DNA of 64,000 nucleotides from contig NZ_KB905024.1 of NCBI RefSeq assembly GCF_000377405.1, forward strand, positions 186,001 through 250,000, in the 5' to 3' direction. Source of the stretch: Thioalkalivibrio sp. ALE31. Its GTDB lineage: Bacteria; Pseudomonadota; Gammaproteobacteria; Ectothiorhodospirales; Ectothiorhodospiraceae. The translations under genes and the position numbers were made by a program. Under the pieces are notes generated by a model, which searched no databases, was not told the origin of the DNA, and was given only the letters and a program-made list of their open reading frames with translations. This document shows positions 26,604 to 63,379 of this stretch, piece after piece; the stretch's first letter is position 1, and every line of letters starts with the position of its first letter.

Positions 26604-26888
26604 AAGGACACACTGATCCATGTACACCCTCGCGCTCGAGTCGCTTTTGCGTGCCAACAAGGTGCGGTGACCGCCGTGCAGTCATTCTGCACAAGGGAGC
26701 CGCAACGCCGTGCGCGCGCCCGTTTCTGATACCAACGGGCGGCCGAGCCCCTTCGGGGTTGGCACCCCAGGTTCCCCGATCCTGCGTTGCACCGCTTGCG
26801 GGTAGAACCACTACCCGCTGCGCGCCGCGCCTGGTCTCGGAAAACCTGGGGTACGAACGCGAGGGTGTACATGGATCAGTGTGTCCTT
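26604..26888. mobile_element. MITE-like element, copy 1 (rsmG/mnmG gap)
   Basis: A 285-base non-coding block bounded by a perfect 31-bp inverted repeat (26604-26634 and 26858-26888, outer end AAGGACACACTGATCC). The right end is followed by A, so TA occurs at 26888-26889; on the left the flank is CA. The interior shares sequence with the copies at 35521 and 63083, including a segment near TTTTGCGTGC and the inner repeat CCCAGGTT / AACCTGGGG, and lies in the opposite orientation to them. No transposase frame is present. The element overlaps the last codons of mnmG. Confidence 0.85.
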
Positions 26889-28738
26889 AGGTGTACGGCC
26901 AGGGCCGACAGTGCGGCCGGGGTCACGCCGGGAATGCGCTGGGCCTGGGCCAGGGTATGCGGACGGAATTCGGCCAGCTTCTGGCGGATCTCGTTGGACA
27001 GACCATGGACCCGGTCGTAGTCGAGTCCGTCCGGCAGCGCGGTCTGTTCCGCCCTGGCCTGGCGATCGATCTCGGCCTGCTGGCGCTCGATGTACCCGGC
27101 GTATTTGGCCTGGATCTCGGCCTGTTCGCGCACGTCCGGTGCGCAGCCCGCATCCAGTTCCGGGAGGGCCTGCATCAGGGCGTCATAGTCGGCCTCCGGC
27201 CGGCGCAGCAGGTCGAGCAGCGTGGCATCCGGGTCCGGGGCCTTGCCGAGGAGCTCGACCAGGGCCGGGCGGCTGCGCTGATCGCGGTCCGGTCGCGTCT
27301 GTGCCAACCGGCTCATCTCCGACTCGATCGCGGCGGCGCGGCGCTCGAACCGGGCCCAGCGGGCATCGTCGACCAGGCCGTATTCACGGCCGACCGGGGT
27401 CAGACGCAGATCCGCATTGTCCTCGCGCAGCAGCAGCCGGTATTCGGCGCGCGAGGTGAACATCCGATAGGGCTCCTGCGTGCCGCGGGTGACCAGGTCG
27501 TCGATCAGCACGCCGATATAGGCCTCGGAACGCTGCGGGATCCAGGGTTCGGCGTCCCGGGTCAGGCGGGCGGCATTGAGCCCGGCGACCAGGCCCTGGG
27601 CGGCGGCCTCTTCGTATCCGGTGGTGCCGTTGATCTGCCCGGCGAAGAACAGATTGGCTACCTCGCGCGTGGCCAGCGACGGGCGCAGGCCGCGCGGGTC
27701 GAAGTAGTCGTACTCGATCGCGTAGCCCGGACGAGTAATGCGCGCGTGCTCGAATCCCTCGATGCTCTGCACCAGCGGCACCTGGATCGCATACGGCAGG
27801 GAGGTGGAGATCCCGTTCGGGTAGAGCTCGTGCGTGGTCAGCCCTTCCGGCTCGACGAAGACCTGGTGGCTGGTCTTGTCGGCAAAGCGCACCACCTTGT
27901 CCTCGATCGAGGGGCAGTAGCGCGGTCCGGTGCTGTCGATCTGGCCGGAATACATCGGGGCCTGATCGAGGTTGGCGCGGATCAGGTCGTGGGTCTTCTC
28001 GCTGGTGCGCGCGATATGACAGGGGCGCTGGGCCGGGTGGTCGTCGGCCGAGCCGGTGAACGAGAACACCGGGCGCGGGTCATCGCCCGGCTGCACCTCG
28101 AGGCGCGCGAAGTCGACGCTGCGCCCGTCGATGCGCGGCGGGGTGCCGGTCTTCAGGCGCCCGACCGCAAAGGCCATCTCGCGCAGGCGCGCGGCCAGGC
28201 GCACGCTCGGCGGATCGCCCGCGCGACCGCCCGGCTGCCGGGTCAGCCCGGTGTGCATCTGGCCGTTGAGGAAGGTCCCCACCGTCAGCACGACGGCACG
28301 GGCCTGGAACGCAGTCCCCGCCTCGGTGACCACGCCGGTCGCACGATCGCCCTCCATGGTGATGTCGGCCACCGGCTGCTGGAAGATCTCCAGATTCGGC
28401 TCGGCCTCCACGAACTGGCGAATGGCCTGGCGGTAGAGCTGCCGGTCGGACTGGGCGCGGGTCGCGCGCACCGCCGGGCCCTTGCGCCGATTGAGGATGC
28501 GGAAATGGATGCCGGCGGCATCCGCCGCACGCGCCATCACGCCCCCCAGGGCATCGATCTCCTTGACCAGGTGGCCCTTGCCGATGCCGCCGATCGCCGG
28601 ATTGCAGCTCATCTGACCGATGGTCTCGATGTTGTGGGTCAACAGCAGCGTGCGCGCACCCGCGCGCGCCGCGGCCAGTGCGGCCTCGGTGCCGGCGTGC
28701 CCGCCGCCAATCACGATGACATCGAATGTTTCTGCCAT
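26876..28738 (-). CDS. mnmG: tRNA uridine 5-carboxymethylaminomethyl modification enzyme MnmG (GidA)
   Basis: FAD enzyme that works with MnmE to modify wobble uridine 34. The 620-residue protein has the dinucleotide-binding motif [14 protein letters not shown] near 8-20. The conserved signatures [15 protein letters not shown] and [16 protein letters not shown] are present, along with the C-terminal helical MnmE-binding domain. E. coli MnmG ends with a KKQG...RRSA-type tail after VHL. Here the protein ends VHLRTH: the last three codons and the TGA stop lie inside the terminal repeat of the element at 26604-26888, so the natural tail appears replaced. Confidence 0.97.
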
Positions 28739-28849
28739 GACCTCTTGAAACCCGGCCGGTGGTCGGCCCGAAAACGTAAAATCAGCAGTTTAGCAGGACT
28801 GGCGGCGGCGTCGAAGCGGCCGCATGGGGATCCATGTTTCCCTGCGCCA

Positions 28850-30166
28850 TCACTTGCCGATGCAGAACCCGGCGAAGATCTCGCCGAGCAGGGCCTCGTG
28901 GTCCTGGCGACCCAGCAGGGCATCCAGCGCGGCCTCGGCCAGGCGCAGCTCTTCGGCAATCACATCCGGCGGGGCCTGCGCGTCGATCGCGGCCAGGTGG
29001 TGGTCGGCCGAACGCAGACCATCGAGGTGGCGCGCCCGCACGCTGAATCGCTGCTGACCGCCCTCGCCGGCACCCAGGCGCTCGACGATCGCCTGCTTCA
29101 GTGCCTCGATGCCCGCACCCGTGCGCGCGGAGATAGCGATCCCCTCGCCTGGAAGGGAATCCTTTGCAACGCAGTCCTGCTTGTTCCAGACCGTAAGACG
29201 CGGGATCTCGGGCGCGGCCTCCAGATCGGGGACGGCCTCCGGCCGGGTCAGGTCCCGCAGCTCCACGATCAGATCGGCCCCGGTCGCGGCCTCGCGGGCG
29301 CGCTCCATGCCGATCCGCTCCACCGGGTCGTCGCTGGCATGCAGTCCGGCGGTGTCGATCAGCTCGACCGGGATGCCGTGGATCGCGATGGGCGAGCGCA
29401 GCACGTCGCGGGTGGTCCCGGGGCGATCGGTGACGATTGCGACCTCGCTTTCTGCCAGGCGGTTCATCAGGCTGGACTTGCCGACATTCGGGGCTCCGAC
29501 CAGGGCCAGGCGCAGACCCTGGGCGAAGTAGCGGGCCGGACGCAGACGCTCCAGAAGGGCGAGGATGGTGGTGTGCAGGTCCTCGGCCCGCCGGGCGATG
29601 TCCGGGGCGGCCTCGGATTCCAGGTCGGTCTCGCCGAAGTCGATCTCGGCCTCGATGACCACGCGCATGTCGCGGATCGCGCGGGAGACCGGCTCCAGCT
29701 CCGCGGCCAGCGCACCATCGAGGCTGGAGCGGGCCAGGCGCGCGGCCTCGGCCGTCTGGGCATGAATCAGGTCGGCGACGGCCTCCGCCTGCGCGAGGTC
29801 GAGGCGGCCGTTCAGAAAGGCCTGTTCGGTGAATTCGCCCGGCCGCGCGCGGCGGGCCCCGAGATCGACCGACGCCGCGACCAGCGCCTCCAGCAGCACC
29901 GGGCTGCCGTGCCCCTGCAGCTCGACCACGTCCTCGCCGGTGAAGGAATGGGGGGCGGGGAAATAGAGGATCAGGCCATCGTCGATGGCCTCGCCACTGG
30001 CCGGATTGATGAGGCGGCCGTAGTGGGCATGGCGCGGTCGCAGGCTGTCGCGCCCGGTCAGGCGCCGTGCGATCTCCAGCGCCTCGGCGCCCGACAGGCG
30101 CACAACGCCTATTCCGCCGACCCCCGGCGGGGTGGCGACCGCGACGATAGTGTCCGTCACGGTCAC
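28850..30166 (-). CDS. mnmE: tRNA modification GTPase MnmE (TrmE)
   Basis: GTPase partner of MnmG. The 438-residue protein has the N-terminal formyl-THF-binding domain (IVAVATPPGVGGIGVVRLSG, HSFTGEDVVELQGHG) and an all-helical middle domain. The inserted G domain carries GAPNVGKSS at 224-232, DTAG and NKQD. The essential C-terminal CIGK has catalytic Cys435. It starts at the GTG at 30166 (a GTG two codons later is equally possible) and lies 7 bases downstream of yidC. Confidence 0.96.
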   Translation of the reverse strand: MTVTDTIVAVATPPGVGGIGVVRLSGAEALEIARRLTGRDSLRPRHAHYGRLINPASGEAIDDGLILYFPAPHSFTGEDVVELQGHGSPVLLEALVAASVDLGARRARPGEFTEQAFLNGRLDLAQAEAVADLIHAQTAEAARLARSSLDGALAAELEPVSRAIRDMRVVIEAEIDFGETDLESEAAPDIARRAEDLHTTILALLERLRPARYFAQGLRLALVGAPNVGKSSLMNRLAESEVAIVTDRPGTTRDVLRSPIAIHGIPVELIDTAGLHASDDPVERIGMERAREAATGADLIVELRDLTRPEAVPDLEAAPEIPRLTVWNKQDCVAKDSLPGEGIAISARTGAGIEALKQAIVERLGAGEGGQQRFSVRARHLDGLRSADHHLAAIDAQAPPDVIAEELRLAEAALDALLGRQDHEALLGEIFAGFCIGK

Positions 30167-30173
30167 GCGGCGC

Positions 30174-31874
30174 CTACTCCTTCTTCTTTTCCGGGTCCTG
30201 TCCAGCCTCGATCTTGCGCGTGATGTACCACTGCTGGGCGATGGAGAACAGGTTGTTGGTGAACCAGTACAGGACCAGACCTGCCGGGAAGAAGGCGAAG
30301 AACACGGTGAACACGAACGGCAGCGCCATGAAGATCTTCTGCTGCACCGGATCCATCGGCGGCGGGTTCAGCTTGTACTGCACGAACATGGACACGCCCA
30401 TCAGGATCGGCAGGATGAAGTACGGATCGCGTGAGGACAGATCCTGGATCCACAGCCACCACGGGGCCTGACGCAGTTCCACACTCTCCAGCAGCACCCA
30501 GTACAGGGCGATGAATACCGGGATCTGCACCAGGATCGGGAGACAGCCACCCAGCGGGTTGATCTTCTCCTTTTTGTACAGGTCCATCAGCGCCTGGTTC
30601 ATGCGCTGCTTGTCGTCCTTGTAGCGCTCCTTCAGGGCCTGCAGCTTGGGCGCGACCTTGCGCATGCGCGCCATCGAGCGGTAGCTGGTCGCGGACAGCT
30701 TGAAGAACGCCAGCTTGATCAGGATCGTCAGGATGACGATCGCCCAGCCCCAGTTGCCGACCACCGCATGGATCTTGTCCAGCAGCCAGAAAAGGGGCTT
30801 GGACAGGAAGGTGAAGATGCCGTAGTCGACGGTCAGCTCCAGACCCTGTGCGATCTGGGAAAGCTCGTCCTGCAGCTTCGGGCCCACCCACAGGCGCGTG
30901 GAAAATGCGCCGCTGGAGCCGGCCGGGATCTGGATCGATTCGGAGTGGAGGCCGATCAGGTACTCGTCACCCACCTCGCCCGGCACCGCGCGGGCATAGA
31001 GCGCATTGACCTCGTCCTCGCCCGGGACCCAGGCGGACACAAAGTAGTGCTGGATCATCGCGACCCAGCCACCCTGGATGCGCGCCTGGATGGGGTCGTC
31101 GCGCAGCGACTCGAAGCGTTCGCGCTCGTAGCTCCCATCGAAATAGGCGGCACCGGTGAAGGTGTAAAGCCACCAGGACTCGCGGTCGGGCGTGGGGCCG
31201 TGACGCAGCTGACGGTACTGGCGACCGCTCCAGGTGGAATCCGAGCGGTTGTGGACCTCGTAGTCCACCTCGATCAGATGCGAGCCGCGGGTGAAGGTAT
31301 AGGTCTTGATGACCTCGATCTCACCATCCTCGGAAATCCAGCGCAGCGGGACCTCGAGGGTGTCCTGGCCCTCGGCCAGTTCGAAGCGGTCCTGGTCGAC
31401 CTGGAAATTGGCGTGATGCGACGGGGCGCGACCCTCCATGGAACGGTCGTTGACCCGATCATGGGTCAGGCCGCTCTGGGCAACATAGCCCCGGACCCGA
31501 TGGTCGAACAGGCGCACAGGGACCAGCGGATCGTCCTGCAGGTCCCGCGGGTACTGCAGCAGGTCCGCCCGCAGGAGCGTACCGCCACGGGTATCGATCA
31601 GGATCTCGTGGGTGTCGGTGCGCACCGTGATCTGGCGGCGGTCCGGCTCCTGCAGCGTACTGACCTGTGGCGCATCGTCCGCGCGCGGCTGGTCCTCCGA
31701 CTCGAACTGCGGCGCATCCGGCACATCCTCCGGCCGCGCGTCCGGATCCTCCTCGGCCTGCTCGGCGGTACGATCCGGCTGGGAGGGAGTGCCGTAATCC
31801 TGATTCCAGGCCTGCCACATCAGGAACAGGACAAAGGCCAGGGTTAGCCACAGGAGGGGACGAAGGTTATCCAT
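30174..31874 (-). CDS. yidC: Membrane protein insertase YidC
   Basis: Inserts and folds inner-membrane proteins, with or without SecYEG, including subunits of ATP synthase. The 566-residue protein has the first membrane helix at 3-22 (PLLWLTLAFVLFLMWQAW). A large periplasmic beta domain follows (about 60-345), then the conserved five-helix core from FLSKPLFWLLDKIHAVVGNWGWAIVILT to the end (GGCLPILVQIPVFIALYWVL and MPFVFTVFFAFFPAGLVLYW-like segments). The acidic linker 25-60 is Asp/Glu/Pro-rich. It ends with the basic tail PEKKKE. Confidence 0.97.
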   Translation of the reverse strand: MDNLRPLLWLTLAFVLFLMWQAWNQDYGTPSQPDRTAEQAEEDPDARPEDVPDAPQFESEDQPRADDAPQVSTLQEPDRRQITVRTDTHEILIDTRGGTLLRADLLQYPRDLQDDPLVPVRLFDHRVRGYVAQSGLTHDRVNDRSMEGRAPSHHANFQVDQDRFELAEGQDTLEVPLRWISEDGEIEVIKTYTFTRGSHLIEVDYEVHNRSDSTWSGRQYRQLRHGPTPDRESWWLYTFTGAAYFDGSYERERFESLRDDPIQARIQGGWVAMIQHYFVSAWVPGEDEVNALYARAVPGEVGDEYLIGLHSESIQIPAGSSGAFSTRLWVGPKLQDELSQIAQGLELTVDYGIFTFLSKPLFWLLDKIHAVVGNWGWAIVILTILIKLAFFKLSATSYRSMARMRKVAPKLQALKERYKDDKQRMNQALMDLYKKEKINPLGGCLPILVQIPVFIALYWVLLESVELRQAPWWLWIQDLSSRDPYFILPILMGVSMFVQYKLNPPPMDPVQQKIFMALPFVFTVFFAFFPAGLVLYWFTNNLFSIAQQWYITRKIEAGQDPEKKKE

Positions 31875-31882
31875 GAGCGCGA

Positions 31883-32140
31883 CTACTTTGAGGGTCGGGT
31901 GCTAGGAGAATCGGAACGCGGTGCCGGAACCGGATCATAACCGCCCGGGGACCAGGGGTGGCAGCGCAGGATGCGCCGCAGACCCAGCCAGAAGCCCCGC
32001 AGGACCCCGTGGGTCTCGACCGCCTCGACGGTATACGCCGAGCAGGTCGGATAGTGACGGCAATGCGGGGCCATGAACGGCGAGATCCCGTACTGGTAGG
32101 CCCGCACGGGCAGCAGGGCAATCTTGCGGGGCAGGCTCAT
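31883..32140 (-). CDS. yidD: Membrane protein insertion efficiency factor YidD
   Basis: Small protein of 85 residues that assists YidC-dependent insertion. The family pattern is complete: [64 protein letters not shown]. The N-terminal amphipathic helix and the conserved Cys residues are visible. Its start overlaps the rnpA stop by 4 bases and it precedes yidC by 8 bases. The 3' tail beyond PVP is variable, as is usual. Confidence 0.95.
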
Positions 32141-32490
32141 TGCAGACGTTCCAGCAGGCTGTCGATTTCGGCGCGCAATGCGCGTCGCTCGGCGCTCGCC
32201 GCGCCACCCCGCGCCAGCACGATCATGTCGAGCGGCGGCAGCTGGGCGCGGCGCACGCGGAACGCCTCGCGCACGATGCGCTTGATCCGGTTGCGGTCCG
32301 TGGCATGGCGCACATGCCGCTTGCCGATAGCCAGGCCCAGACGCGCCTCGCCGGTCTCCGAACGCCGATAGAGCAAGGTCAGGTCGCGACCGCGCTGACG
32401 CCGGGCATCCTCGAATACACGCTGGTAATCCGCGCCCGTCAGCAAACGGACGCGGCGCGGAAAGGTCTGGATGGCTGGCGCCGCGGTCAC
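32137..32490 (-). CDS. rnpA: Ribonuclease P protein component RnpA
   Basis: Basic protein cofactor of the RNase P ribozyme that matures tRNA 5' ends. The 117-residue protein contains the family signature [29 protein letters not shown], with the RNR RNA-binding motif, and an N-terminal [15 protein letters not shown]. It is preceded by rpmH (22-base gap), the universal order. The catalytic RNA gene rnpB is not in this window. Confidence 0.95.
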
Positions 32491-32512
32491 GGGAGCCGGC
32501 GCGCCGCCCGGT

Positions 32513-32647
32513 TTACGGGCAGAGGCGCTTGCGGCCCTTGGCGCGACGGGCGTTCAGGACCTTGCGGCCACCACGGGTGGCCATACGGGCCCGGAAGCCG
32601 TGCGTGCGGGCGCGGACGAGCCGGCTGGGTTGGAAAGTGCGCTTCAT
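32513..32647 (-). CDS. rpmH: 50S ribosomal protein L34
   Basis: 44-residue, very basic ribosomal protein that starts [18 protein letters not shown] and ends GRKRLCP. The central segment [21 protein letters not shown] is typical. Its gene is first in the rpmH-rnpA-yidD-yidC-mnmE series and lies opposite to dnaA across a 153-base gap holding the promoter. Confidence 0.97.
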
Positions 32648-32683
32648 GTCGGTTCCCGGTGACGCTTGGTTAAAGGGCGGTGA

Positions 32684-32712
32684 AAACTATCGCCATCCGG
32701 GGACAAAGTCAA
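32684..32712 (-). promoter_or_regulatory. Promoter of rpmH-rnpA-yidD-yidC operon
   Basis: On the minus strand TTGACT (32707-32712) and TAGTTT (32684-32689) are 17 bases apart, 37 bases upstream of the rpmH ATG. The -35 box has five of six matches and the -10 is weaker. A ribosomal-protein gene with this spacing is expected to have such a promoter. Confidence 0.65.
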
Positions 32713-32800
32713 TCTCGGGGTCGGCAAGCCGCTGGCACCGCAGGGGCCCATCGGCGTAGACTCGGGGACTTCCATTCCCCGCCGCCCCGGAGACAAACGC

Positions 32801-34171
32801 GTGTCAGCCAATGCCCTGTGGACAGCCTGTCTGGACCGCCTGCAGGGGAAGGTCAGCGAGCAGCAACTCAACACCTGGCTGCGGCCGCTGCATGCCGAGG
32901 AGTCGGGGGGCACGCTGCGCCTGCTGGCGCCGAATCAGTTTGTGTTCGAGCATGTGCGCGACCATCTGCTGGCCTCGATCGAGGAAACGGTCGGCGAGCT
33001 GCAGCCTGCCAACGATCCGGGCGGTCGGCGCGTGCGCCTTGGCATCGGCGGTGCGGAGCTGCCGGCGGCTCCGGCCCCCGATCCCCACGAGTCCCAGCGC
33101 GAGCGGGCCGCAGCGGAAAAGGCAAGCCCGGCGCCGCGGCCCCAGGGTCCGGTCAGCAACCTGAACCCCGCGTTTACCTTCGACACCTTTGTCGAGGGGA
33201 AATCCAACCAGCTTGCGCGGGCGGCGAGTCTGCAGGTCGCGGAGAATCCCGGGGTCGCCTACAACCCGCTGTTCATCTACGGCGGGGTGGGTCTGGGCAA
33301 GACCCATCTGATGCATGCGATCGGGCACAGCATCCTGGCGCGGCATCCGGAGGGGCGGATCATCTACCTGCACTCCGAGCGTTTCGTGGCCGACATGATC
33401 AAGGCGCTGCAGCACAACGCGATCGACGAGTTCAAGCAGCACTACCGCTCCGCGGACGCGCTGCTGATCGACGACATCCAGTTCTTCGCCGGCAAGGAGC
33501 GTTCGCAGGAAGAGTTCTTCCACACCTTCAACGCCCTCCTGGAAGGCCAGCAGCAGATCATCCTCACTTCGGATCGCTATCCGAAGGAGGTCGAGGGCCT
33601 CGAGGAGCGACTGAAGTCGCGCTTTGGCTGGGGCCTGACGATTGCGATCGAGCCGCCCGAACTGGAGACGCGGGTCGCGATCCTCCAGCGCAAGGCCGAG
33701 CAAGCCGGGATCGAGCTTCCCACCGAGGTCGCCTTCTTCATGGGCAAGCGCATCCGGTCCAACATCCGCGAACTGGAAGGCTCGTTGCGTCGGGTGATCG
33801 CCAATGCCCACTTTACCGGCAAGCCGATCACGCTCGACTTCGCGAAGGATGCGCTGCGGGACCTGCTTGCCGTTCAGAACAAGCTGATTACGCTGGAGAA
33901 TATCCAGAAGACCGTGGCGGATTACTATCGCGTGAAGGTCGCGGATCTGCTCTCCACCCGGCGCAGCCGTTCCATCGCCCGGCCGCGTCAGATCGCGATG
34001 GCACTGGCCAAGGAACTGACCCAGCACAGCCTCCCGGAGATCGGCCAGGCCTTCGGCGGGCGCGACCACACCACCGTCATCCATGCCTGCCGGAAGGTGG
34101 TCGAGTTGCGCGAGGCAGATGCAAGCCTGGACGAGGACTACTCCAATCTGTTGCGGACACTGAGCAGTTGA
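32801..34171 (+). CDS. dnaA: Chromosomal replication initiator protein DnaA
   Basis: Binds DnaA boxes and melts oriC. The 456-residue protein has domain I (about 1-80, [22 protein letters not shown]) and a Pro/Ala-rich linker to about 118. The AAA+ domain has Walker A GGVGLGKT at 161-168 and Walker B LLIDDIQF. The domain IV signature [15 protein letters not shown] lies near the end. It starts at a GTG. A weak possible promoter (CTGGCA at 32732, TAGACT at 32757, 19-base spacer) lies upstream. The genes on both sides diverge from this point, marking the replichore boundary. Confidence 0.97.
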
Positions 34172-34417
34172 ACGCGGTCCATTCCGGTCGGCCGAAACCT
34201 GTGGATAACCTGGGTGCAACGCCGGTATGGATTCGTGGAAAAATTCGACGGCCAAACTGTCCACAGGTTGGCAACAGGCTTCACAGAGGTATCGGCAGCC
34301 CCTGGAATCTTATCAAGTTGCTGATTAAAAAGAATGTATAGGGTTTTCTTCACAGGGAAGTCGGCCTCTTATTATCACTAGATGAATATCTAAACAGACT
34401 AGATACAGGACATCGCC
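34172..34417. other. oriC: Candidate replication origin oriC (dnaA-dnaN intergenic region)
   Basis: The 246-base gap between dnaA and dnaN has one perfect DnaA box on the minus strand (TGTGGATAA, 34200-34208). Two near matches are CGTGGAAAA at 34234-34242 (7 of 9) and CTGTCCACA at 34258-34266 (7 of 9). AT-rich stretches at 34307-34354 and 34366-34410 could be the unwinding region, unusual in this GC-rich sequence. The dnaA-dnaN gap is a common origin position in gammaproteobacteria. No ter or other origin candidate is seen in the window, but activity is not shown by sequence alone. Confidence 0.65.
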
Positions 34418-35521
34418 ATGGAACTGTCTTTCAATCGCGAGACGATGACCGAAGCGCTGCAACGGATTGTGGGCGCGGCCGAGAAACGATTGACGATGCC
34501 CATTCTCGGGAACGTGCGCCTGCGCCCGGATGACCATGGCGCGATCCGGATGGACACCACCGATCTCGAACTCGCTTGGCAGGCCGGCGCCGAGGGCGCA
34601 ATTCCCGGGGAGTGCGATGTCACGGTCTCGGTTCGCAAGCTGCTCGACGTGGTCAAGGCCGCACCGGCCGACAGCGAGATTCGCGCGAAGGTCGAGGGCG
34701 AACGCATGACGGTCGGTTTCGGAGGCTCGCGCTTCAGTCTGGCCACGCTCCCGGGGGCAGATTTTCCCGACTGGGAGGCGCGTGGGTCCGAGGCCGTGCT
34801 GGATGTGCCGCAGAATCGGCTACGCCGATTGCTCGAGGCCACGATGTTCTCCATGGCTCAGCAGGACGTGCGCTACTACCTGCAAGGGCTCCTGCTGGTG
34901 GCCAGTGGCAACAGCCTGCGTGCGGTAGCCACGGATGGCCATCGGCTGGCGCTGGCCGAGGTGGAGCTGGAGCAGCCGGTGGAGGAGCGAATCGAACGTA
35001 TCGTGCCGCGCAAGGCCGTCGCCGAGCTGCGGCGCAACCTGGCCGATGACGACACGTCGGTGCGCATCGGCTTCGGGGAAGACCAGGTGGTGTTCGAACT
35101 CGGCAGCGCGGTGTTGCGCAGCAAGGTGATCGAAGGACGGTTCCCGGACTACGAACGGGTGATCCCGGCGGATCTGCCGGCGACCCTGCGGGTGGACCGC
35201 GAGATCCTGAAGCAGGCACTTGGGCGCGTCGCGATTGTGGCAAGCGACAAGTATCGGGGCGTGCGGATGGTGCTGGGCGAGAGCGGGTGTCAGGTCATGA
35301 CCCATAACGCCGATCGTGAAGAGGCCCAGGAGTCGGTGGAGGCGGAATACGACGGGGGCCCGATGGAGATCGGGTTCAACCTGGGCTACCTCGCGGATGT
35401 GCTGAATGTGCTGGAGACCGACCAGGTGCGGATCGGGCTGCGCGACGGCAACTCGTCCATCCTGATCCAGGCGGAACCGCCGGGCGGGGCACGCTACGTC
35501 GTCATGCCGATGCGGCTCTAG
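34418..35521 (+). CDS. dnaN: DNA polymerase III beta subunit (sliding clamp) DnaN
   Basis: Ring-shaped dimer that tethers polymerases to DNA. The 367-residue protein has the three repeated clamp folds, starting MELSFNRETMTEALQRIVGAAEKR and ending GGARYVVMPMRL, the standard C-terminus. The stop TAG lies at the left edge of the MITE-like element (35521). The ribosome site AGGA lies close upstream of the ATG. The normal dnaN-recF adjacency is broken by the element. Confidence 0.97.
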   Translation: MELSFNRETMTEALQRIVGAAEKRLTMPILGNVRLRPDDHGAIRMDTTDLELAWQAGAEGAIPGECDVTVSVRKLLDVVKAAPADSEIRAKVEGERMTVGFGGSRFSLATLPGADFPDWEARGSEAVLDVPQNRLRRLLEATMFSMAQQDVRYYLQGLLLVASGNSLRAVATDGHRLALAEVELEQPVEERIERIVPRKAVAELRRNLADDDTSVRIGFGEDQVVFELGSAVLRSKVIEGRFPDYERVIPADLPATLRVDREILKQALGRVAIVASDKYRGVRMVLGESGCQVMTHNADREEAQESVEAEYDGGPMEIGFNLGYLADVLNVLETDQVRIGLRDGNSSILIQAEPPGGARYVVMPMRL

Positions 35522-35830
35522 GGAAACACCGATCCATGTATACGCTCGCGTTGGTATCCCGGGTTTTCCGAGACCGGACGCGTCGTGCATCGGCTAGTTC
35601 TACCCGCCCGTTTCTGATGGATTCGGGGCGCAACGCAGGATCGGGGAACAGGGGGCGCCAACCTCGCAACCGAATCAACGAAGGGGCTCGGCCGCTCGTT
35701 TTTAATGACAACGGGCGCGCGCACGGCGTTGCGGCTCACCTGTAGCAGAATGACTGCACGGCCGTCGCAGCGCATTAAACGCACGCAAAAGCGACTCGAG
35801 CGCGAGCGTGTCGATGAATTCGTGTTTCCG
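35521..35830. mobile_element. MITE-like element, copy 2 (between dnaN and recF)
   Basis: 310-base non-coding block with outer ends GGGAAACACCGATCC and its imperfect reverse complement (right end CGTGTTTCCG). The terminal repeats of about 30 bp match at roughly three quarters of positions. TA flanks it on both sides (35519-35520 and 35831-35832). It shares with copies 1 and 3 the segment AAACGCACGCAAAAGCGACTC near the right end and the AACGCAGGATCGG region. No coding frame is credible. It separates dnaN from recF. Confidence 0.85.
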
Positions 35831-35845
35831 TAGGCTGGAGGTTGT

Positions 35846-39482
<3,637 letters not shown>

Positions 39483-48312: not shown

Positions 48313-48316
48313 GCGT

Positions 48317-53417: not shown

Positions 53418-54926
53418 ATGTCGGTCCACGACCCTGCACAATCTGACCTCCCCGAAACGGAACTGGAGTGGATCAACCGCTTCGCCCGGTTGCCGGAGGC
53501 CTTTTATGACCGGCCCGCCCCGGCCCCGTTTCCCGGCGCCAACTGCCTGGCCGCAAGCCCCGACATGTGCGATCGCCTGGACCTGGACCCGGCCGCGTTG
53601 GAGCGCGATCCGTGGTTGGGGGTCTGTACCCGGGGGAGCGAGCTGCCGGGCGCCGAACCCCTGGCATCGGTGTATGCCGGTCATCAGTTCGGAGTATTCG
53701 TGCCACAGTTGGGGGATGGTCGCGCCAAGCTGCTCGGCGAGGTCCGAACCGCCCGGGGCGAGACCTGGGAACTGCAGGTCAAGGGGGCTGGGCCAACCCG
53801 GTACTCGCGAGGGGCGGACGGTCGTGCGGTTGTCAGGTCCTCGGTGCGCGAGTACCTGGTCTCCGAGGCGATGGCGGCGCTGGGTGTGCCTACCACGCGG
53901 GCCGTGGCGCTGTTTGGTTCCAGTCTGCGGGTCTATCGCGAGCGCATCGAACCGGGGGCCATCGTGCTGCGGGCGGCGCCGTCCTTCCTCCGCTTCGGCC
54001 ATTTCGAGTACTTCCACTACAACGGCTACAGCGCGCGCCTGCAGGAGCTGATCGACTATGCCCTGGCGCACGACTATCCGGAGCTGGTGGATGCCGAAGA
54101 TCCGGTGGCTGCGATGCTGGAGGCGGTGATTGGACGCACCGCGGAGATGATCGCGGACTGGCAGGCCATCGGGTTTTGTCACGGGGTGATGAACACCGAC
54201 AACATGAGTCTGGCCGGGCTGACCATCGACTATGGTCCGTTCGCCTTCATGGATGCCTTCGACCCCGGCTACATCTGCAACCACACCGACCAGGGCGGGC
54301 GCTACGCCTTCGATCAGCAGCCGCAGATCGCGCAGTGGAACCTGGTCCGCCTGGCCGAGACCCTGGTGATTTACTTCGCCGACCCTACCCGGGAGGCGGC
54401 GATCGAGCGCGCCAAGGCCTTGCTGGAGGATTTCCAGCCGCAGTACCGCCGTGCCTGGCTCGCGCGCATGCGGGCGAAACTCGGCCTGCAGGCGGCGCAG
54501 GAAGGCGACGAGGCCCTGATCCAGGACCTGCTGGCCCGCATGGCGGCCGAGGGCGTGGACTACACCCGATTTTTCCGCCAGTTGCCGGATCTGGAGCAGG
54601 CGGAGACGCGCGCGCAGCTGGAATCGGAACTGGAGGATCGGGCCGCCTGGCAGGCATGGTGGTCGCGCTACCAGGCACGCCTGGCGCAGGAAGCCCGGGC
54701 GGCGGATGCGCGCCGGGCGGCGATGAACGCGGTCAACCCGAAGTACATCCTGCGCAACCACCTGGCGCAGGCCGCGATCGAGCGGGCCGAGGCCGGTGAT
54801 CCCTCCGAGGTGCAGCGCCTGCAGCGGATTCTCGCCCGGCCGTTCGACGAGCAGCCCGAGTTCGAGGCCTATGCCGATCTGCCCCCGGCGTGGGCCAGCG
54901 GCATCCAGCTGAGTTGTTCGTCCTGA
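53418..54926 (+). CDS. selO: Protein adenylyltransferase SelO (YdiU/UPF0061)
   Basis: Pseudokinase-fold enzyme that transfers AMP from ATP to protein Ser, Thr or Tyr. The 502-residue protein has LLGEVRTARGETWELQVKGAGPTRYSRGADGR with nucleotide-binding Lys122. The metal-binding Asp261-Asn262 (MNTDNMS) and Asp271 (DYGPFAFMD) are present. The C-terminus ends SCSS, with a Cys where eukaryotic SelO has selenocysteine. It starts at the ATG 53418. The convergent neighbour is a phosphate transporter gene. Confidence 0.93.
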   Translation: MSVHDPAQSDLPETELEWINRFARLPEAFYDRPAPAPFPGANCLAASPDMCDRLDLDPAALERDPWLGVCTRGSELPGAEPLASVYAGHQFGVFVPQLGDGRAKLLGEVRTARGETWELQVKGAGPTRYSRGADGRAVVRSSVREYLVSEAMAALGVPTTRAVALFGSSLRVYRERIEPGAIVLRAAPSFLRFGHFEYFHYNGYSARLQELIDYALAHDYPELVDAEDPVAAMLEAVIGRTAEMIADWQAIGFCHGVMNTDNMSLAGLTIDYGPFAFMDAFDPGYICNHTDQGGRYAFDQQPQIAQWNLVRLAETLVIYFADPTREAAIERAKALLEDFQPQYRRAWLARMRAKLGLQAAQEGDEALIQDLLARMAAEGVDYTRFFRQLPDLEQAETRAQLESELEDRAAWQAWWSRYQARLAQEARAADARRAAMNAVNPKYILRNHLAQAAIERAEAGDPSEVQRLQRILARPFDEQPEFEAYADLPPAWASGIQLSCSS

Positions 54927-54968
54927 CCGGACGGAATGCGTGCGGGGTGTGGAATGAATGCCCCGAGC

Positions 54969-56228
54969 TTACCCGAGGATGCCGCGCAGGATGTAGAAGT
55001 AGACCACCGCGAGGATGGCCCCGGCCGGCAGGGTCACGATCCAGGACAGGAAGATCATCCGCACCAGCCCCAGGTTGATCGCGGCGATCCCGCGCGCCAG
55101 GCCCACCCCGAGGATCGCGCCGACCAGGGTGTGCGTGGTGGAGATCGGCAAGCCGGTGCCCGAGGCCAGCACCACGGTCGCCGCCGCCGCGGCCGTGGCC
55201 GCATAGCCACGACTGGGCGTGAGCTGGGTGATGCCGGTGCCGACGGTCGCGATGACCTTGTGGCCGTAGGTGAACAGGCCGAAGACGATCCCGAACCCGC
55301 CCAGCAGCAGCACCCACATCGGCACGACCGTCTCGGTGCTCACATCGCCGGTCTGGATCACGTCCACGACCGCGGCTAGCGGCCCCACCGCATTGGCGAC
55401 GTCGTTGGAGCCCAGGGCGAAGGCCATCGCGCAGCCGGTCACCACCATCTGGACGCCGAACACCTTCTCGACATTGGCAAAATGGGAGCCCTCTTCGCCC
55501 ACGCCCGTGGGGTCGTCGAAGCGCAGGCGGCGGATCGCCATCATCCCGAGCACGACCACCACCGCGCTTACCAGGGTGGCGAAGCCATAGGCCTGCAGCG
55601 TCGTCAGGTCCAGCCCGACATGGGTCAGTCCCTTGAACATCGTGACCAGGGCGGTGACGAAGGCCGTCAGGAAGATGTACAGCGGGGCCCAGCGCTTGGC
55701 GTTCTTCAGCGGATCGACGGTGTCCAGGATCAGGATCTGCACACTGCGGAACAGGGCAAACGCAATCATGCCGCCGACCATGGGCGACACCACCCAGGAC
55801 ATCGCGATGGTCCCGACGCGCTCCCAGCGCACGACCTCGAAGCCCAGCCCGACCACGGCAAAACCGATGATGGCCCCGATGATCGAGTGGGTCGTGGAGA
55901 CTGGCCAGCCGAAATAGGACGCGGCCAGGAGCCAGCTCCCGGCGGCCGCCAGGGCCGCCAGCATCCCGTACACGAGCAGTTCGGGGTTGTCCGCCATCAG
56001 GCTGGAGTCGACCATCCCGCTGCGGATGGTCTGGGTGACCTCGCCGCCGGCGAGCCAGGCCCCGGAGAATACGAAGATCGCGGCGACAAAGACCGCCTGG
56101 CGGATGGTCAGCGCGCGCGAGCCGACCGAGGTACCCATCGCATTGGCGACGTCATTGGCGCCGATGCCCCAGGCCATGAACAGGCCGAAGATCACTGCAA
56201 GGCCGAGCAACAGGGTGCTGTATTCCAT
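54969..56228 (-). CDS. PiT-family inorganic phosphate transporter
   Basis: 419-residue integral membrane protein with about 10-12 helices. The two repeated PiT signatures are GANDVANAMG (23-32) and, in the second half, GSNDVANAVG, with GWPVSTTHSIIGAIIG and GLPISTTHTLVGAILG. It imports phosphate with H+ or Na+; related permeases may carry sulfate. It lies 32 bases downstream of a DUF47 gene that is a usual partner in pit operons. Confidence 0.93.
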   Translation of the reverse strand: MEYSTLLLGLAVIFGLFMAWGIGANDVANAMGTSVGSRALTIRQAVFVAAIFVFSGAWLAGGEVTQTIRSGMVDSSLMADNPELLVYGMLAALAAAGSWLLAASYFGWPVSTTHSIIGAIIGFAVVGLGFEVVRWERVGTIAMSWVVSPMVGGMIAFALFRSVQILILDTVDPLKNAKRWAPLYIFLTAFVTALVTMFKGLTHVGLDLTTLQAYGFATLVSAVVVVLGMMAIRRLRFDDPTGVGEEGSHFANVEKVFGVQMVVTGCAMAFALGSNDVANAVGPLAAVVDVIQTGDVSTETVVPMWVLLLGGFGIVFGLFTYGHKVIATVGTGITQLTPSRGYAATAAAAATVVLASGTGLPISTTHTLVGAILGVGLARGIAAINLGLVRMIFLSWIVTLPAGAILAVVYFYILRGILG

Positions 56229-56260
56229 GCGGTCCTCGGTTCCTTACTTGGTATGGCCTG

Positions 56261-56941
56261 TTACTTCGCCAGCATCAGTTGCAGGCGGCTGCCTACACGC
56301 TGGGCCAGGTCGGCCAGCTCGCCGATCGAGTCGATCACGCGGTACATGAAGATCACGTTAACCGGGGGCAGCTCCGCCTCCTGGGCGAACAGGATCTCGC
56401 GCACCTCGCGCTGGGCCTCGTCGGATTCGTGCTCGATCTGGTCCAGCTCGGTAAGGATGCCGTTGACGACCTCGACCTCGTGTCCGCGGAAACCCGCCTC
56501 CACCAGTTCGTCCAGTTCGTTGATCGCCCGACCGGCCTGATCGACCGCATCCACGCTGCGGTCGAGGAAACGCTTGATCGGTTCCCGCATGTTGTCGGGG
56601 AACTGCATCTGGCGGCCCAGCATCAGCCCGGCGATGTCCTTCGCCATGTTGGCGATGCGATCCTGGATCAGCAGGGTATCCAGCACGTCGCGGCGCGACA
56701 TCGCCAGCATCATGCCCTTGGGCAGGTGCAGCCGCAGGTCCTTCTTCAGGCGGTCGGCCTCGCGCTCCAGCTTCGCGATCTTGCGCTGCTGCTCGCGCGC
56801 GGTCTCCCAGTCATCGCGCGCCATGGCCTCCATGAACGGGGGGAGCTCGGCGATGCAGGCGCGGATCTTCTCCATGTGCGCCTGCAGCGGGCGCACCGGG
56901 GAACGGCCAAACAGCTCGAAGACGAAGTTCTTGGGGGACAT
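56261..56941 (-). CDS. DUF47/PhoU-like phosphate transport regulator (TIGR00153)
   Basis: 226-residue all-helical protein. Residues 1-12 (MSPKNFVFELFG) and the pattern VRPLQAHMEKIRACIAELPPFMEAM, IAKLEREADRLKKDLRLHLP and SRRDVLDTLLIQDRIANMAKDIAGLML match the DUF47 family related to PhoU. These proteins regulate or assist the Pit transporter, here encoded just downstream. The ATG at 56941 is chosen because similarity starts there; upstream the frame does not resemble the family. Confidence 0.9.
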   Translation of the reverse strand: MSPKNFVFELFGRSPVRPLQAHMEKIRACIAELPPFMEAMARDDWETAREQQRKIAKLEREADRLKKDLRLHLPKGMMLAMSRRDVLDTLLIQDRIANMAKDIAGLMLGRQMQFPDNMREPIKRFLDRSVDAVDQAGRAINELDELVEAGFRGHEVEVVNGILTELDQIEHESDEAQREVREILFAQEAELPPVNVIFMYRVIDSIGELADLAQRVGSRLQLMLAK

Positions 56942-57046
56942 GGCGGCGCGAAGGTTGTCACAAAGCCATAATCTAACGCAAAACACCGTGGCCCGCGCGG
57001 ACTTGTTCGTGTCGAGGCCGCCGTTCTGCGCTAGACTCTTGGATCA

Positions 57047-59106
<2,060 letters not shown>

Positions 59107-59136
59107 GCCAGCGGGGCTGGCCCGGGTCAGGACGCC

Positions 59137-60234
59137 CTACCGCACCTCGATGCGGTCACGGCCGTTCTTTTTCGCCGCATACAGGGCCTGGTCGGCACGA
59201 TCAAAGGTGTCGACCCGGCTTTCACCCGGCCGGTATTCGGTCACGCCGAAGCTCGCGGTGCGCCGCCCGACCGTCTCGAAGTCGAAGGCATTGATACGGG
59301 CCTGCAGGTCATAGGCGACCCCCTGTGCCTGCGCGACGGACGTCTGCGGTAGCAGCACGAAGAACTCCTCGCCCCCGATCCGGCCGATCGCATCCACCTC
59401 GCGCAGATTCTGGCGCAGCAGGTCCGCGAACTGTCGCAGCACGCGGTCACCGGCACTGTGCCCCCAGGTATCGTTCACCGCCTTGAAGTGGTCGATGTCC
59501 ATCAGGATCACCGAGAACGGTTCGCCGTAGCGCTCGGTGCGGGCCCGCTCCGCCTCGAACAGGCGCTCGATATGGGCGCGGTTCCATAGCGAGGTCAGCT
59601 CGTCGACCTGCGCCGAGCGTTCCAGCTGGCGTTGCTGCAGGAAGCTGTGCTTGCGCGCATGCTCCAGCATGAAGGCACTCAGCGCGCCGAAGCTGAAGGC
59701 GGCCAGCACCCACAGGAGATGCAGCTGGATCAGCTCGCCCTGCATGGGATCGCGGAAGGCGGCGACAATCACCAGGGCCACGATGGCGGTGGCGGCCATC
59801 GTGGCCGGGCGCAGCGGCAGGCCCGATATCGCGAAGGTCCACATGATGCTGAGGTAGATCTCGGGGGCGAACACCAGGAACTGCGGCGACCCGGTGTTCA
59901 GATAGAGATTGGCGCCATTCGCGATCACCGGCGCTACCATCAGCAGGGCCCACATCGGCCGTTGCAGGGGGGCCCGCAGGCTCATCGCGGCCACCGCCAG
60001 CAGCAGGCCGGGCACCAGCATCGCATGCGCGACCAGCCGTTCGCTGTGCAGGTCCGCCGCCACAGACTGTTCGACGGCGCTGAACAGGAGGTACATCAGG
60101 GCCGTCAGCAGCGCGACATAGCGGACCTGCGGGATACGCGCCTGGCGATGCCAGGCGTCGAACGCCTGTTGAACCGCGGTGTCTTCCCGGTGCAGCGGGT
60201 CCCAGAGGGCCCGTGGGCGCCTGGTGTTATCCAA
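59137..60234 (-). CDS. Membrane-bound diguanylate cyclase (GGDEF domain)
   Basis: 365-residue protein with an N-terminal membrane region of about six helices (25-190, MYLLFSAVEQS, LLLAVAAMSL and so on) and a C-terminal GGDEF domain. The active-site motif is GGEEF at 287-291, and an intact RxxD inhibitory site (Arg278, Asp281) lies five residues before it, so c-di-GMP synthesis with feedback is expected. The start is a TTG at 60234 (LDNTRR): an AAAGGAGT ribosome site lies 6-7 bases upstream and an open frame further upstream is unlike the family. Convergent with thiC. Confidence 0.85.
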   Translation of the reverse strand: MDNTRRPRALWDPLHREDTAVQQAFDAWHRQARIPQVRYVALLTALMYLLFSAVEQSVAADLHSERLVAHAMLVPGLLLAVAAMSLRAPLQRPMWALLMVAPVIANGANLYLNTGSPQFLVFAPEIYLSIMWTFAISGLPLRPATMAATAIVALVIVAAFRDPMQGELIQLHLLWVLAAFSFGALSAFMLEHARKHSFLQQRQLERSAQVDELTSLWNRAHIERLFEAERARTERYGEPFSVILMDIDHFKAVNDTWGHSAGDRVLRQFADLLRQNLREVDAIGRIGGEEFFVLLPQTSVAQAQGVAYDLQARINAFDFETVGRRTASFGVTEYRPGESRVDTFDRADQALYAAKKNGRDRIEVR

Positions 60235-60275
60235 GCCTTGACTCCTTTTCTGGCCCGAGCCCCGGGCGAGGGTAC

Positions 60276-60653
60276 CTACATGGCGCCGCTCATGCCCCCC
60301 ATACCCATCAGTCCGGCGCCGATCCCGAAGATCATGCCCAGCACCATCAGGATCAGGTAGATCAGCAGCAGCACACCGAAGATCGTGAAGTAGATCCGCA
60401 GGCGCCCGAGCGCGTACTTGATCGCCTCGGGGTCGCCGCTTTCGTAGGCGCGCTGGGAGGCACCGGCGGCCTGCATCAGAACCACGCCGGCCCAGATCGG
60501 GATCCACGCGATGATGATGCCGATGATCGACAGCGCGGTGAGTACGCCGGAGATGATCAGCATGATGCCGATCAGCTGCATCCAGAACTTCCCGCGAACG
60601 AGTGGTTCGATCAGTGCGCGAAGGTCGGCCGTGCTGGTTGCGTCCTGTTCCAT
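60276..60653 (-). CDS. Small membrane protein (DUF5362-like)
   Basis: 125-residue protein. Two or three membrane helices are predicted: 28-45 (IGIMLIISGVLTALSII), 46-62 (GIIIAWIPIWAGVVLM) and 87-113 (FTIFGVLLLIYLILMVLGMIF), separated by a short charged segment (YESGDPEAIKYALGRLRI). The tail is Gly/Met-rich. It resembles DUF5362 proteins, whose function is not known. The ATG at 60653 has AAGGAGT 7 bases upstream. It lies 41 bases upstream of the diguanylate cyclase on the same strand, possibly in one operon. Confidence 0.7.
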   Translation of the reverse strand: MEQDATSTADLRALIEPLVRGKFWMQLIGIMLIISGVLTALSIIGIIIAWIPIWAGVVLMQAAGASQRAYESGDPEAIKYALGRLRIYFTIFGVLLLIYLILMVLGMIFGIGAGLMGMGGMSGAM

Positions 60654-60825
60654 GTTCAGACTCCTTGTCGTGTTGGCTGGTCGTGACGGGTGGGTCTCCG
60701 GAGCATAGCAGGCCGCCTCATGCTGTGACGCATTCGTTGTTTTGGCGCGTGCAGCCCGTGCATACTCGACCGGGTGCAAGCCCGAAGAGCAGGGCCGGGT
60801 CACGGCTCGAGAAGCAGGGGGATGT

Positions 60826-61362
60826 ATGAGCGATCAGGGACGACGCAGGGATGCCGGCCGCAGCGGGCCGCAGGGCACGATGCTGTTTCAGGGGCAGGCC
60901 GTGCCCGAGCCGGAGGCGGTAGCCGATCCCGCCGGCGAGGAGACCCCGCCCGGTGGCCATCCGGTGCTGGTGGGGCTCTCCGAGCCCTTCGGCCAGCAGC
61001 GCCTGACGCTCAAGCCGGGCAAGCGCTCGGTCGGTCGCCAGGCGGACAACGACATCGTCCTGCAGGAGGGCAGCGTGTCCTCGCAGCATGCCTGGCTGGT
61101 CAACGACGGGGGCGAGTGCCGGGTGGTCAACCTGCTCTCCACCAACGGGACCTGGGTGAACGACGAGAAGGTGCACGAGGCCGTGCTGAAGGACGGCGAC
61201 CATGTCCGTTTCGGGCGTGCCGAGTTCGTCTTCCGCCGCCGCGATGACGGCTCCGATGCCCGACCCGGTGGTGGCCGCCGGTCGCGCTGGCGCTGGCTCG
61301 GTATCGCGGTCGTGGTCCTGGTGCTGGCGGTGATCGCGCGCATCCTGCTCGAGACAGCCTGA
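60826..61362 (+). CDS. FHA-domain protein with C-terminal membrane anchor
   Basis: 178-residue signalling protein. Residues 45-138 form an FHA domain that binds phosphothreonine: SVGRQADNDI (68-77), SSQH (85-88) and NGTWVN (107-112) are the ligand-binding loops. A single C-terminal helix (156-173, RWLGIAVVVLVLAVIARILL) anchors it, with the FHA domain in the cytoplasm. The N-terminal segment contains GTMLFQG and EETPP, possible targets for the kinase next door. The ATG at 60826 has AGGGGG just upstream. It lies 20 bases before the kinase gene. Confidence 0.88.
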   Translation: MSDQGRRRDAGRSGPQGTMLFQGQAVPEPEAVADPAGEETPPGGHPVLVGLSEPFGQQRLTLKPGKRSVGRQADNDIVLQEGSVSSQHAWLVNDGGECRVVNLLSTNGTWVNDEKVHEAVLKDGDHVRFGRAEFVFRRRDDGSDARPGGGRRSRWRWLGIAVVVLVLAVIARILLETA

Positions 61363-61382
61363 GGGCCGGGCCCGGCTCCCCC

Positions 61383-63083
61383 ATGCAGCGGATCGGGCGC
61401 TACGGGGTCGGCGAGGAGATCGGTCGCGGTGCGATGGCCGTGATCCATCGTGGTTACGACCCGGACATCCGCCGGCCGCTGGCCATCAAATCCCTGCAGC
61501 CCGACTACGCCTGCCGCCCCGAGTATCGCCGGCGCTTCCTGGCCGAGGCCCGCGCGGCCGGCACGCTGACTCATCCCGGCATCGTCACCATCTTCGATGT
61601 CGGCGAGTCGGATCACCAGCCGTTCATCGCGATGGAGCTGCTGGACGGAATCACGCTCGCGGAATTCGCCGACCAGTTCCGTCCGTTGCTGTTGCGCAAT
61701 GTCCTGAAGATCGCCATCCAGCTGGTGGAAGCGCTCGATTACGCGCACCGGCATGGTGTGGTGCACCGGGATATCAAGCCGGAAAACATCATCGTCACCA
61801 GCGCCACGGCCAATATCAAGGTGATGGACTTCGGCATCGCCCGCACCCTCAGCGACCCCGACTGGCGGGCCGACGATGATGGCTATGTCGCCGGTTCCCC
61901 ACACTACATGGCCCCGGAGCAGGTGCGCGGCCAGCCCACGGATGCGCGGGCCGACCTGTATTCGGTCGGCGTGGTGCTGTACGAACTCCTGACCGGCGCC
62001 ACGCCGTTTCGTGGCCACGATGTCGAGACGCTGCTGACCCGGGTGGTCCGGGACCCCGTACCGTCACCCCGAGTCATCGTGCGCGACTGCCCGCAGGAAC
62101 TGGTCGAGCTGGTAGTGCGCCTGCTGGCGAAAGACCCGGACCAGCGCTATCAGTCGGCGGGCGAACTGCTGGTGGACCTCGAACGCATCGAAGAGCAACG
62201 CAGCGAACGTGAGCGGGCCGGGGCGGGCCGCCGCATCGTCCCGTTGCGGCTGCGCTGGGCGGCGGTGATGGGGGTCCTGGTCGCGGTCACGCTGGTCGTC
62301 GGCGGGGCCCTGGTCCACCAGAAGCAGAATGCGGTGATGACCGACCTGGCCTTCGACTATGGCTCCACGCTCGCCCAGATCATCTCGGTGGAGAGCGCCG
62401 AGGACCTGCTGCTGGAGGACACCATCGCGGTCCAGGGCCGCCTGCGCGACATGCAGGCCAACCGCGAGATCGCCCTGCTGAGCGTGGCGGACCATCGCGG
62501 ACGGGTGGTGGCCAGCAGCGATCCCGAGGCCATGGGCCAGCCGTATCAGCCGCCGCCCGAGGAGCATCTCCTCCAGCGCCGCGACGGCCAGGCCGTGTGG
62601 TCCGTGGCCGGGCCGGATGGCGGGGAGCTGTTCCTGTTCGAGGCCCCGGTGCGCTACCAGGATCACCACATCGGCCAGCTCCAGGTCGGGTTGTCCACCG
62701 GGTCGCTGCGTGCGGCCAACGAGGCCACGTTCATGGCCCTGCTGATGCTCACCCTGGTCACGTTGCTCGCGGTGCTGCTGGGGGCCTACGTCCTGGCCCG
62801 GCGCCTGCAGGAACCCCTGGACCGCCTGCGCGGGGCCCTGGACCAGATCGGTCAGGGACGGCTGGACACGCGCATCCGGGCCCGGCGTCGGGATGACTTC
62901 GAACGTGTCTTCAGTGCCTACAACGCGATGGCGGATTCGCTGGAGGCGCGCATGAAGCGGCGCACGGACGGGGTGAGCGAACCCGGCACCGGCCACGCAG
63001 CATCTGCCGGGGACCGGACCCAGGAACTGGCCCCCGAGGATCTGCCGTCCGAGGCGGCCCCGAGACGGACCGGAACCGACTAA
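61383..63083 (+). CDS. Transmembrane Ser/Thr protein kinase with periplasmic sensor and HAMP domain
   Basis: 566-residue Hanks-type kinase. The N-terminal catalytic domain (6-268) has the Gly loop GRGAMAV (14-20), Lys36, HRDIKPEN with Asp130, DFG (149-151) and APE (177-179), so it should be active. Then come a membrane helix (292-311), a periplasmic region of about 138 residues (312-449, LLSVADHRGRVVASSDP is sCache-like), a second helix (450-473), and a HAMP domain (474-524) with a short Pro/Ala-rich tail. HAMP after the sensor with no effector behind it is unusual for a kinase. The TAA stop lies at the edge of the MITE-like element. Confidence 0.9.
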   Translation: MQRIGRYGVGEEIGRGAMAVIHRGYDPDIRRPLAIKSLQPDYACRPEYRRRFLAEARAAGTLTHPGIVTIFDVGESDHQPFIAMELLDGITLAEFADQFRPLLLRNVLKIAIQLVEALDYAHRHGVVHRDIKPENIIVTSATANIKVMDFGIARTLSDPDWRADDDGYVAGSPHYMAPEQVRGQPTDARADLYSVGVVLYELLTGATPFRGHDVETLLTRVVRDPVPSPRVIVRDCPQELVELVVRLLAKDPDQRYQSAGELLVDLERIEEQRSERERAGAGRRIVPLRLRWAAVMGVLVAVTLVVGGALVHQKQNAVMTDLAFDYGSTLAQIISVESAEDLLLEDTIAVQGRLRDMQANREIALLSVADHRGRVVASSDPEAMGQPYQPPPEEHLLQRRDGQAVWSVAGPDGGELFLFEAPVRYQDHHIGQLQVGLSTGSLRAANEATFMALLMLTLVTLLAVLLGAYVLARRLQEPLDRLRGALDQIGQGRLDTRIRARRRDDFERVFSAYNAMADSLEARMKRRTDGVSEPGTGHAASAGDRTQELAPEDLPSEAAPRRTGTD

Positions 63084-63379
63084 GGAAACACTGATCCCTG
63101 TACGCGCTCGCGTTGGCACCCCAGGTTTTCCGAGACCAGGCGCGTCGCGCAGTGGCTAGTGGTTCTACCGGCCCGTTTTGGATGGATTTGGGGCGCAACG
63201 CAGAATCGGAAAACCTGGGGTACCAACCCCGAAGGGGCTCGGCCCCCCGTTGCTATCAAAAACGGGTCGCGAACGGAGTTGCGGTTCCCTTGTGCAGAAT
63301 GACTGCATGGCGGTCACCGCGCATTAAACGCACGCAAAAGCGACTCGAGCGCGAGCGTGTACAGGGATCAGTGTTTCCT
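63083..63379. mobile_element. MITE-like element, copy 3 (kinase / LysM-TPR gap)
   Basis: 297-base non-coding block with a terminal inverted repeat of 30 bp differing at a single position (63083-63112 and 63350-63379; outer end AGGAAACACTGATCC). TA lies directly on both sides (63081-63082 and 63380-63381), as expected for a TA target duplication. An inner inverted repeat CCCAGGTTTTCCGA / TCGGAAAACCTGGGG and the AAACGCACGCAAAAGCGACTC segment match copies 1 and 2. It provides the third base of the TAA stop of the kinase on one strand and of the LysM/TPR gene on the other. Confidence 0.88.

Follow-up and report, generated by a model that had tools for sequence, protein, structure and literature searches.

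Bacterial miniature inverted-repeat transposable elements (MITEs), such as RUP, NEMIS, Bcr1, ERIC, YPAL, Nezha and EFAR (listed in PMC3733652), are small, non-coding, bounded by terminal repeats, strongly folding, often located beside genes and movable in trans. Here we report a repeat family resembling them in these traits, three copies of which lie in a 64-kb window of Thioalkalivibrio sp. ALE31 (contig NZ_KB905024.1, positions 186,001 to 250,000; the whole stretch of DNA that was analysed). What sets the family apart, the other MITEs being compared by description only, is that it folds back along its whole length, with arms that vary between copies yet match within them. Insertion sequences (ISs) of the IS5 family (NF033581; IS5 of E. 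coli, which makes a direct repeat of its 4-bp target, PMC11677980) are alike in end motif and 4-bp CTAG-like target, whereas the MITE lacks a transposase frame, one MITE shares only its ends with the IS, and MITE footprints are often unequal. We conclude that these are very probably MITEs mobilised in trans by a DDE transposase of the IS5 family, one that recognises ends like GGAAACRCTGATNNAT and inserts at 4-bp CTAG-like sites.

Two other kinds of element were compared, REP elements and the structured and repeat motifs listed in PMC11109978, some of which come from Thioalkalivibrio. Repetitive extragenic palindromic (REP) elements of Thioalkalivibrio are likewise numerous, dispersed palindromes, but they measure 20-40 bp and are tied to IS200/IS605-type RAYT enzymes (PMC3733652, PMC2817692), whereas the MITE is 260-310 bp long with IS5-type ends; membership among the REPs was rejected on this length and these ends. 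The smtA 'Soda Lake RNA' motif, found only in Thioalkalivibrio, and the MRSC motifs, which are repeat candidates, are also structured and covarying, but the former exceeds 350 nt and lies upstream of smtA, and MRSC-65-2 (the MRSC motif compared, from the main text rather than the supplement) is a single stem with UYCCGG from diverse phyla (PMC11109978). Our literature searches, with supplements outside their scope, found no description of the family.

The initial annotation had read the three window blocks as one family of gene-less inverted repeats, with perfect arms in copy 1, one mismatch in copy 3 and degraded arms in copy 2, and had expected a MITE of high genomic copy number; all of this is borne out. 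With the element taken to run from GG to CC, inside a 4-bp footprint, the remeasured copies are 281, 308 and 295 bp long and have 0, 6 and 1 arm mismatches over the first 22 nt (copies 1, 2 and 3), copy 1 lying in the opposite orientation to copies 2 and 3. Their features are as follows.

26606..26886, + strand: copy 1, 281 bp, perfect arms, between mnmG and rsmG
26602..26605, no strand: copy 1, left 4-bp footprint CCAA
26887..26890, no strand: copy 1, right 4-bp footprint TTAG
26606..26635, + strand: copy 1, left arm of the terminal stem, inner limit approximate (from alignment and folds, of a sister copy and of single sequences)
26857..26886, + strand: copy 1, right arm of the terminal stem, inner limit approximate (from alignment and folds)
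26636..26747, + strand: copy 1, arm A, approximate (from alignment and sister-copy fold)
26748..26758, + strand: copy 1, small central hairpin CCCC-TTC-GGGG, approximate (from sequence, alignment and sister-copy fold)
26759..26856, + strand: copy 1, arm B, approximate (from alignment and sister-copy fold)
35522..35829, - strand: copy 2, 308 bp, arms mismatched at 6 of 22 positions, flanked by the dnaN stop codon and recF
35518..35521, no strand: copy 2, 4-bp footprint CTAG, which includes the dnaN stop TAG
35830..35833, no strand: copy 2, 4-bp footprint GTAG
63084..63378, - strand: copy 3, 295 bp, arms mismatched at 1 of 22 positions, flanked by two convergent open reading frames (ORFs)
63080..63083, no strand: copy 3, 4-bp footprint CTAA, which includes the stop TAA of the left ORF
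63379..63382, no strand: copy 3, 4-bp footprint TTAA, which includes the stop of the right, convergent ORF

Five frames overlap the copies; none matched a transposase in Pfam, and one of them is rsmG with an extended start. Copy 1 alters the C-terminus of MnmG, which ends in HLRTH with its stop inside the element (window 26870-26900), while relatives with an empty site, read by eye, have HLKQRASGE followed by a stop. Copy 2 begins inside the dnaN stop codon and retains a GGAGG motif just ahead of the GTG start of recF (window 35518-35850).

These blocks are three copies of a family of non-coding repeats that are mostly 260-310 bp long. Searching the 2.77-Mb ALE31 genome with an inner 21-mer (up to 3 mismatches) returned 51 places against 0 for the control; 35 of the 51 were perfect, so the inner core is strongly conserved, and 2 were short deletion derivatives. 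The end pattern, at the same tolerance, matched 61 times genome-wide (reversed control 0), and both counts are well in excess of chance. Blastn of copy 1 against its own genome located the element in at least 40 places, with 40 of 106 first-look candidates scored, and gave 7 further short matches in which an end hits its own inverse. Thirteen stretches holding 14 end matches, each read over 420 bp, yielded at least 4 short derivatives with both ends, the remainder being single ends, one partial copy or possible chance matches. Four miniature derivatives (L094, L103, L096 and L102) hold little beyond the two arms, as expected of deletions within hairpins. At E <= 0.001 the element is carried by 16 of 30 Thioalkalivibrio genomes, ALE31 included, and by 0 of 28 genomes of other genera; every record among the 80 loci listed by the pattern scan is titled Thioalkalivibrio, and blastn against plasmids and phages gave no match to the element.

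All sequence examined held 264 element matches, from which we retained 187 unique copies with both ends placed away from sequence edges. A single interior, which carries optional hairpin modules, is combined with two end types, with consensus GGAAACACTGATCAATGTACAC (type 1) and GGAGACGCTGATTGAATCGCAC (type 2), to which 143 and 44 of these copies were sorted. At one genomic site (L008 and L169) two species differ in end type, the ends being type 1 in one of them and type-2-like in its counterpart.

Empty orthologous sites show that the element arrived by insertion. Among dnaN orthologs from 26 genomes, 14 are empty at the copy 2 locus, ending 1-13 bases before recF, and the other 12 comprise ALE31 with its element, L219 with a related element, and 10 genomes with long unrelated or unaligned spacers. 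At the copy 1 locus 23 of 25 orthologs are empty, ALE31 and L258 being filled, so that neither locus shows the pattern named by the initial annotation as refuting its reading, in which all relatives would keep the sequence. Across the family, an apparent empty site (gap of -3 to 12 bases) was found for 43 of the 187 placed copies, some of them weak and one being a copy matched to its own neighbourhood, and in 25 of the 43 the filled site exceeded the empty one by the element plus exactly 4 bp. These elements are short, end in terminal inverted repeats, lack a transposase frame, occur in many dispersed copies and have empty sites, and are thus a MITE family. The related element of L219 (genome G010), 163 bp long and located at the copy 2 site between dnaN and recF, represents either a second insertion or an old copy that has become shorter.

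The 4-bp surplus bears directly on the type of mover, which had been suggested to be an IS630/Tc1-like transposase that duplicates TA (no search for an IS630 transposase was made). TA is indeed present at both edges of copies 2 and 3 and lies within the favoured CTAG/TTAA footprint, as a MITE of such a transposon might show, but it sits inside 4-bp footprints (CTAG/GTAG and CTAA/TTAA) and does not fit a TA duplication. Nor do empty sites uniformly present the single TA that had been foreseen: in most relatives the unoccupied copy 1 site is CTGA (mnmG sense), and further targets also lack TA. With ends that match an IS5-family element instead, an IS630/Tc1-type origin is highly improbable.

The matching IS5-family element was found in relatives. 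Ten of the 30 Thioalkalivibrio genomes have PF05598 (IS5-family DUF772) matches, and 9 of 19 fetched PF05598 loci, from five genomes (G022, G012, G021, G029 and G010), carry the MITE end motif. This partner IS is autonomous and 1.2 kb long, with MITE-like ends and 4-bp CTAG-like target repeats, and its transposase contains DDE_Tnp_1 and DUF772 domains and scores 319 bits against NF033581 transpos_IS5_4 (cut-off 140). Eight IS copies have both ends readable (GG..CC boundaries, by eye), and their flanking 4-mers are identical in 5 (CTAG, CTAG, TTAA and the non-palindromic GTAG and TAAG) and different in 3. A protein search with the transposase matched in 7 of the 30 genomes, with 6 near relatives, all in MITE carriers (that of G006 being a 91-residue piece), and a seventh match, in G008, just 32% identical to the IS transposase; G029 holds three IS copies with an identical protein.

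Comparing MITE and IS directly, one type-1 MITE shared 17 identical bases with the IS L278 at each MITE end and had no longer match; a type-2 MITE compared in this way had no match to the IS at E <= 1. Over 22 nt, type-1 arms fit IS left ends (17-18) and type-2 arms fit right ends (15-18), with the right end of the IS L282 fitting both equally (15). The same end motif, inside CTAG, also bounds a relative on a Burkholderia vietnamiensis plasmid (transposase 62.6% identical), one of four named plasmid relatives. From these matching ends, an IS5-family enzyme likely moves, or moved, the MITE: a DDE transposase acting in trans would recognise the shared ends and would insert the element at 4-bp, CTAG-like sites.

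Several results weigh against this assignment. Neither the PF05598 profile nor the protein search found a transposase match in the ALE31 genome, and only 6 of the 16 MITE-carrying genomes have the transposase; the two ends are not seen together at the remaining 10 of the 19 PF05598 loci, and our scan gave no such ends for three of the four named plasmid relatives. Perfect 4-bp repeats flank just 66 of the 187 copies, 55 of them being palindromic CTAG/TTAA, which plain IS5 transposition does not predict, and MITE footprints are often unlike the empty target and unlike each other. Because the transposase was not found in ALE31, the copies in this genome may be stranded without a mover.

To describe the footprints, we evaluated both their pairing and their departure from the target. 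Counted outwards from GG..CC, bases 1 and 2 are complementary across the element in 93% and 88% of the 187 copies, base 3 in 50%, base 4 in 69% and bases 5-8 in 27-33%. At all 22 sites with a 4-base empty target, 63 of 176 footprint bases depart from it, compared with 114 of 880 bases within 20 positions on either side, and at the 10 sites with no more than 4 local mismatches in 40 they differ at 24 of 80 versus 19 of 400 nearby. Some sites are plain duplications (CTTG, CCAG), and one young-looking insertion, with flanks 99.8% identical, has target CTAT and copies CTGG and CCAG. A model without duplication, in which two bases per end are carried in, accounts for the inner bases of the footprint, but those further out differ from the target equally (32/88 versus 31/88), so neither it nor simple duplication is complete. 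Copying a palindrome extension from the other flank was also rejected, as it leaves targets CTAT and GTAT unexplained. We have no full explanation for the footprint divergence and the cross-element pairing.

Inside the footprints, the two arms of a copy resemble each other more than the arms of different copies do. When 180 full-length copies were folded as single sequences, 176 paired 20 or more of their first 25 bases with the opposite end, the number being 25, 19 and 24 in copies 1, 2 and 3. Taking one copy per orthologous site and shuffling the right 22-nt arms among copies, type 1 (n=123) had 1.42 arm mismatches within copies versus 3.48 when shuffled (minimum of 2000 shuffles 3.20), and type 2 (n=38) had 1.45 versus 2.07 (minimum 1.74); position 13 of type-1 arms is mismatched in 13% within copies against 58% between different copies. 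Of 37 ALE31 copies examined, 29 belong to type 1, and no two of these share an arm pair; 13 of the 29 pairs are perfect, and one type-1 copy (L049) has a misplaced end. The eight type-2 copies have 7 distinct pairs.

Filled orthologous sites allow such changes to be counted in place. With footprint bases included, 32 orthologous filled pairs from 21 site groups gave 20 concerted differences and 84 single or other differences, 34 of the latter coming from one copy with an arm indel and 10 of the former (plus 4 single) from a site with different end types in two species. The other 28 pairs gave 10 concerted and 46 single differences, the 10 coming from only three, more diverged site groups, and 15 pairs with inner divergence of at most 6% gave 0 concerted and 6 single arm changes (arm-indel copy excluded; with it, 18 pairs, 0 and 21). 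Both counts speak against template switching in place. Among 50 disjoint nearest non-orthologous pairs we counted 72 concerted and 78 single changes; leaving out a pair whose end types differ lowers the concerted count to 61. The concerted share differed between orthologous pairs of similar inner divergence and these non-orthologous pairs (0/6 versus 61/139; Fisher p 0.04).

This difference would follow if arms changed in concert at transposition, with one end templated on the other or with donor flank bases replacing target bases, so that copies are born self-complementary; young-looking insertions with footprints unlike their target, such as the CTAT site above, fit this as well. Yet six in-place changes are few, 62 of the 187 copies share identical arms with some non-orthologous copy, and five IS copies have ordinary 4-bp repeats. 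Inner divergence would moreover date copies poorly if conversion between copies occurs, as is suggested by several orthologous pairs whose arms are identical although their interiors have diverged; the interior may be homogenised between copies. On balance we think an origin of the matching at transposition unlikely.

Our best guess is instead that template switching keeps the two arms of a copy matched. Quasipalindrome correction, a process of E. coli, would be the model, with template switching at the replication fork, rather than recognition by the transposase, mainly maintaining the match. Arms could become matched either when a copy is born or afterwards, the in-place sample being small. 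The broader proposal, that both element ends are rewritten together and the adjacent target bases also rewritten to pair, templated at copying or by hairpin-driven template switching, is possible but doubtful; if true, recognised ends would drift copy by copy while symmetry is kept.

Arm pairing could also be kept by selection on a structured RNA. A sister copy (L011) folds into a three-way junction on either strand with z of -14.6 and -16.4, the inner core is conserved as noted above, and at least 2 Watson-Crick types occur in 33 of 112 examined pairs. That covariation lies mostly in the terminal stem (19/31, against 6/37 in arm A, 6/38 in arm B and 2/6 in the small hairpin). G-U exceeds A-C on the modelled strand in the terminal stem (161:68) and in arm A (199:41), but A-C is the commoner in arm B (83:133), and much of the excess in the stem comes from two terminal columns (82:54 without them), all these counts being non-independent as the copies are related. 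They favour no single strand, on which ground we rejected the structured-RNA reading. The initial annotation had allowed for the ends belonging to a structured RNA or a known repeat family, and an Rfam scan of the 64-kb window gave no family at gathering score on the window copies. Function as a structured RNA is accordingly a decidedly remote prospect. Rfam scanning also placed a TPP riboswitch at window 57042-57139 (+ strand, 72.6 bits). Separately from any RNA function, copies in mnmG-rsmG and dnaN-recF, which we take from their gene neighbours to be likely operons, would be transcribed as a strong hairpin, and a transcribed copy may alter mRNA processing there.

Beyond ALE31, these results point to what probably moves a large repeat family in a genus with many sequenced genomes. 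With over 100 palindrome copies, and with both orthologous and empty sites, the family is also a natural setting for counting concerted changes of hairpin arms. It bears on how long stem pairing persists, a debated question for which template switching has been proposed as the keeper of pairing in RNA genes (PMC8794818), and it would make the insertion footprints of IS5-type enzymes testable.

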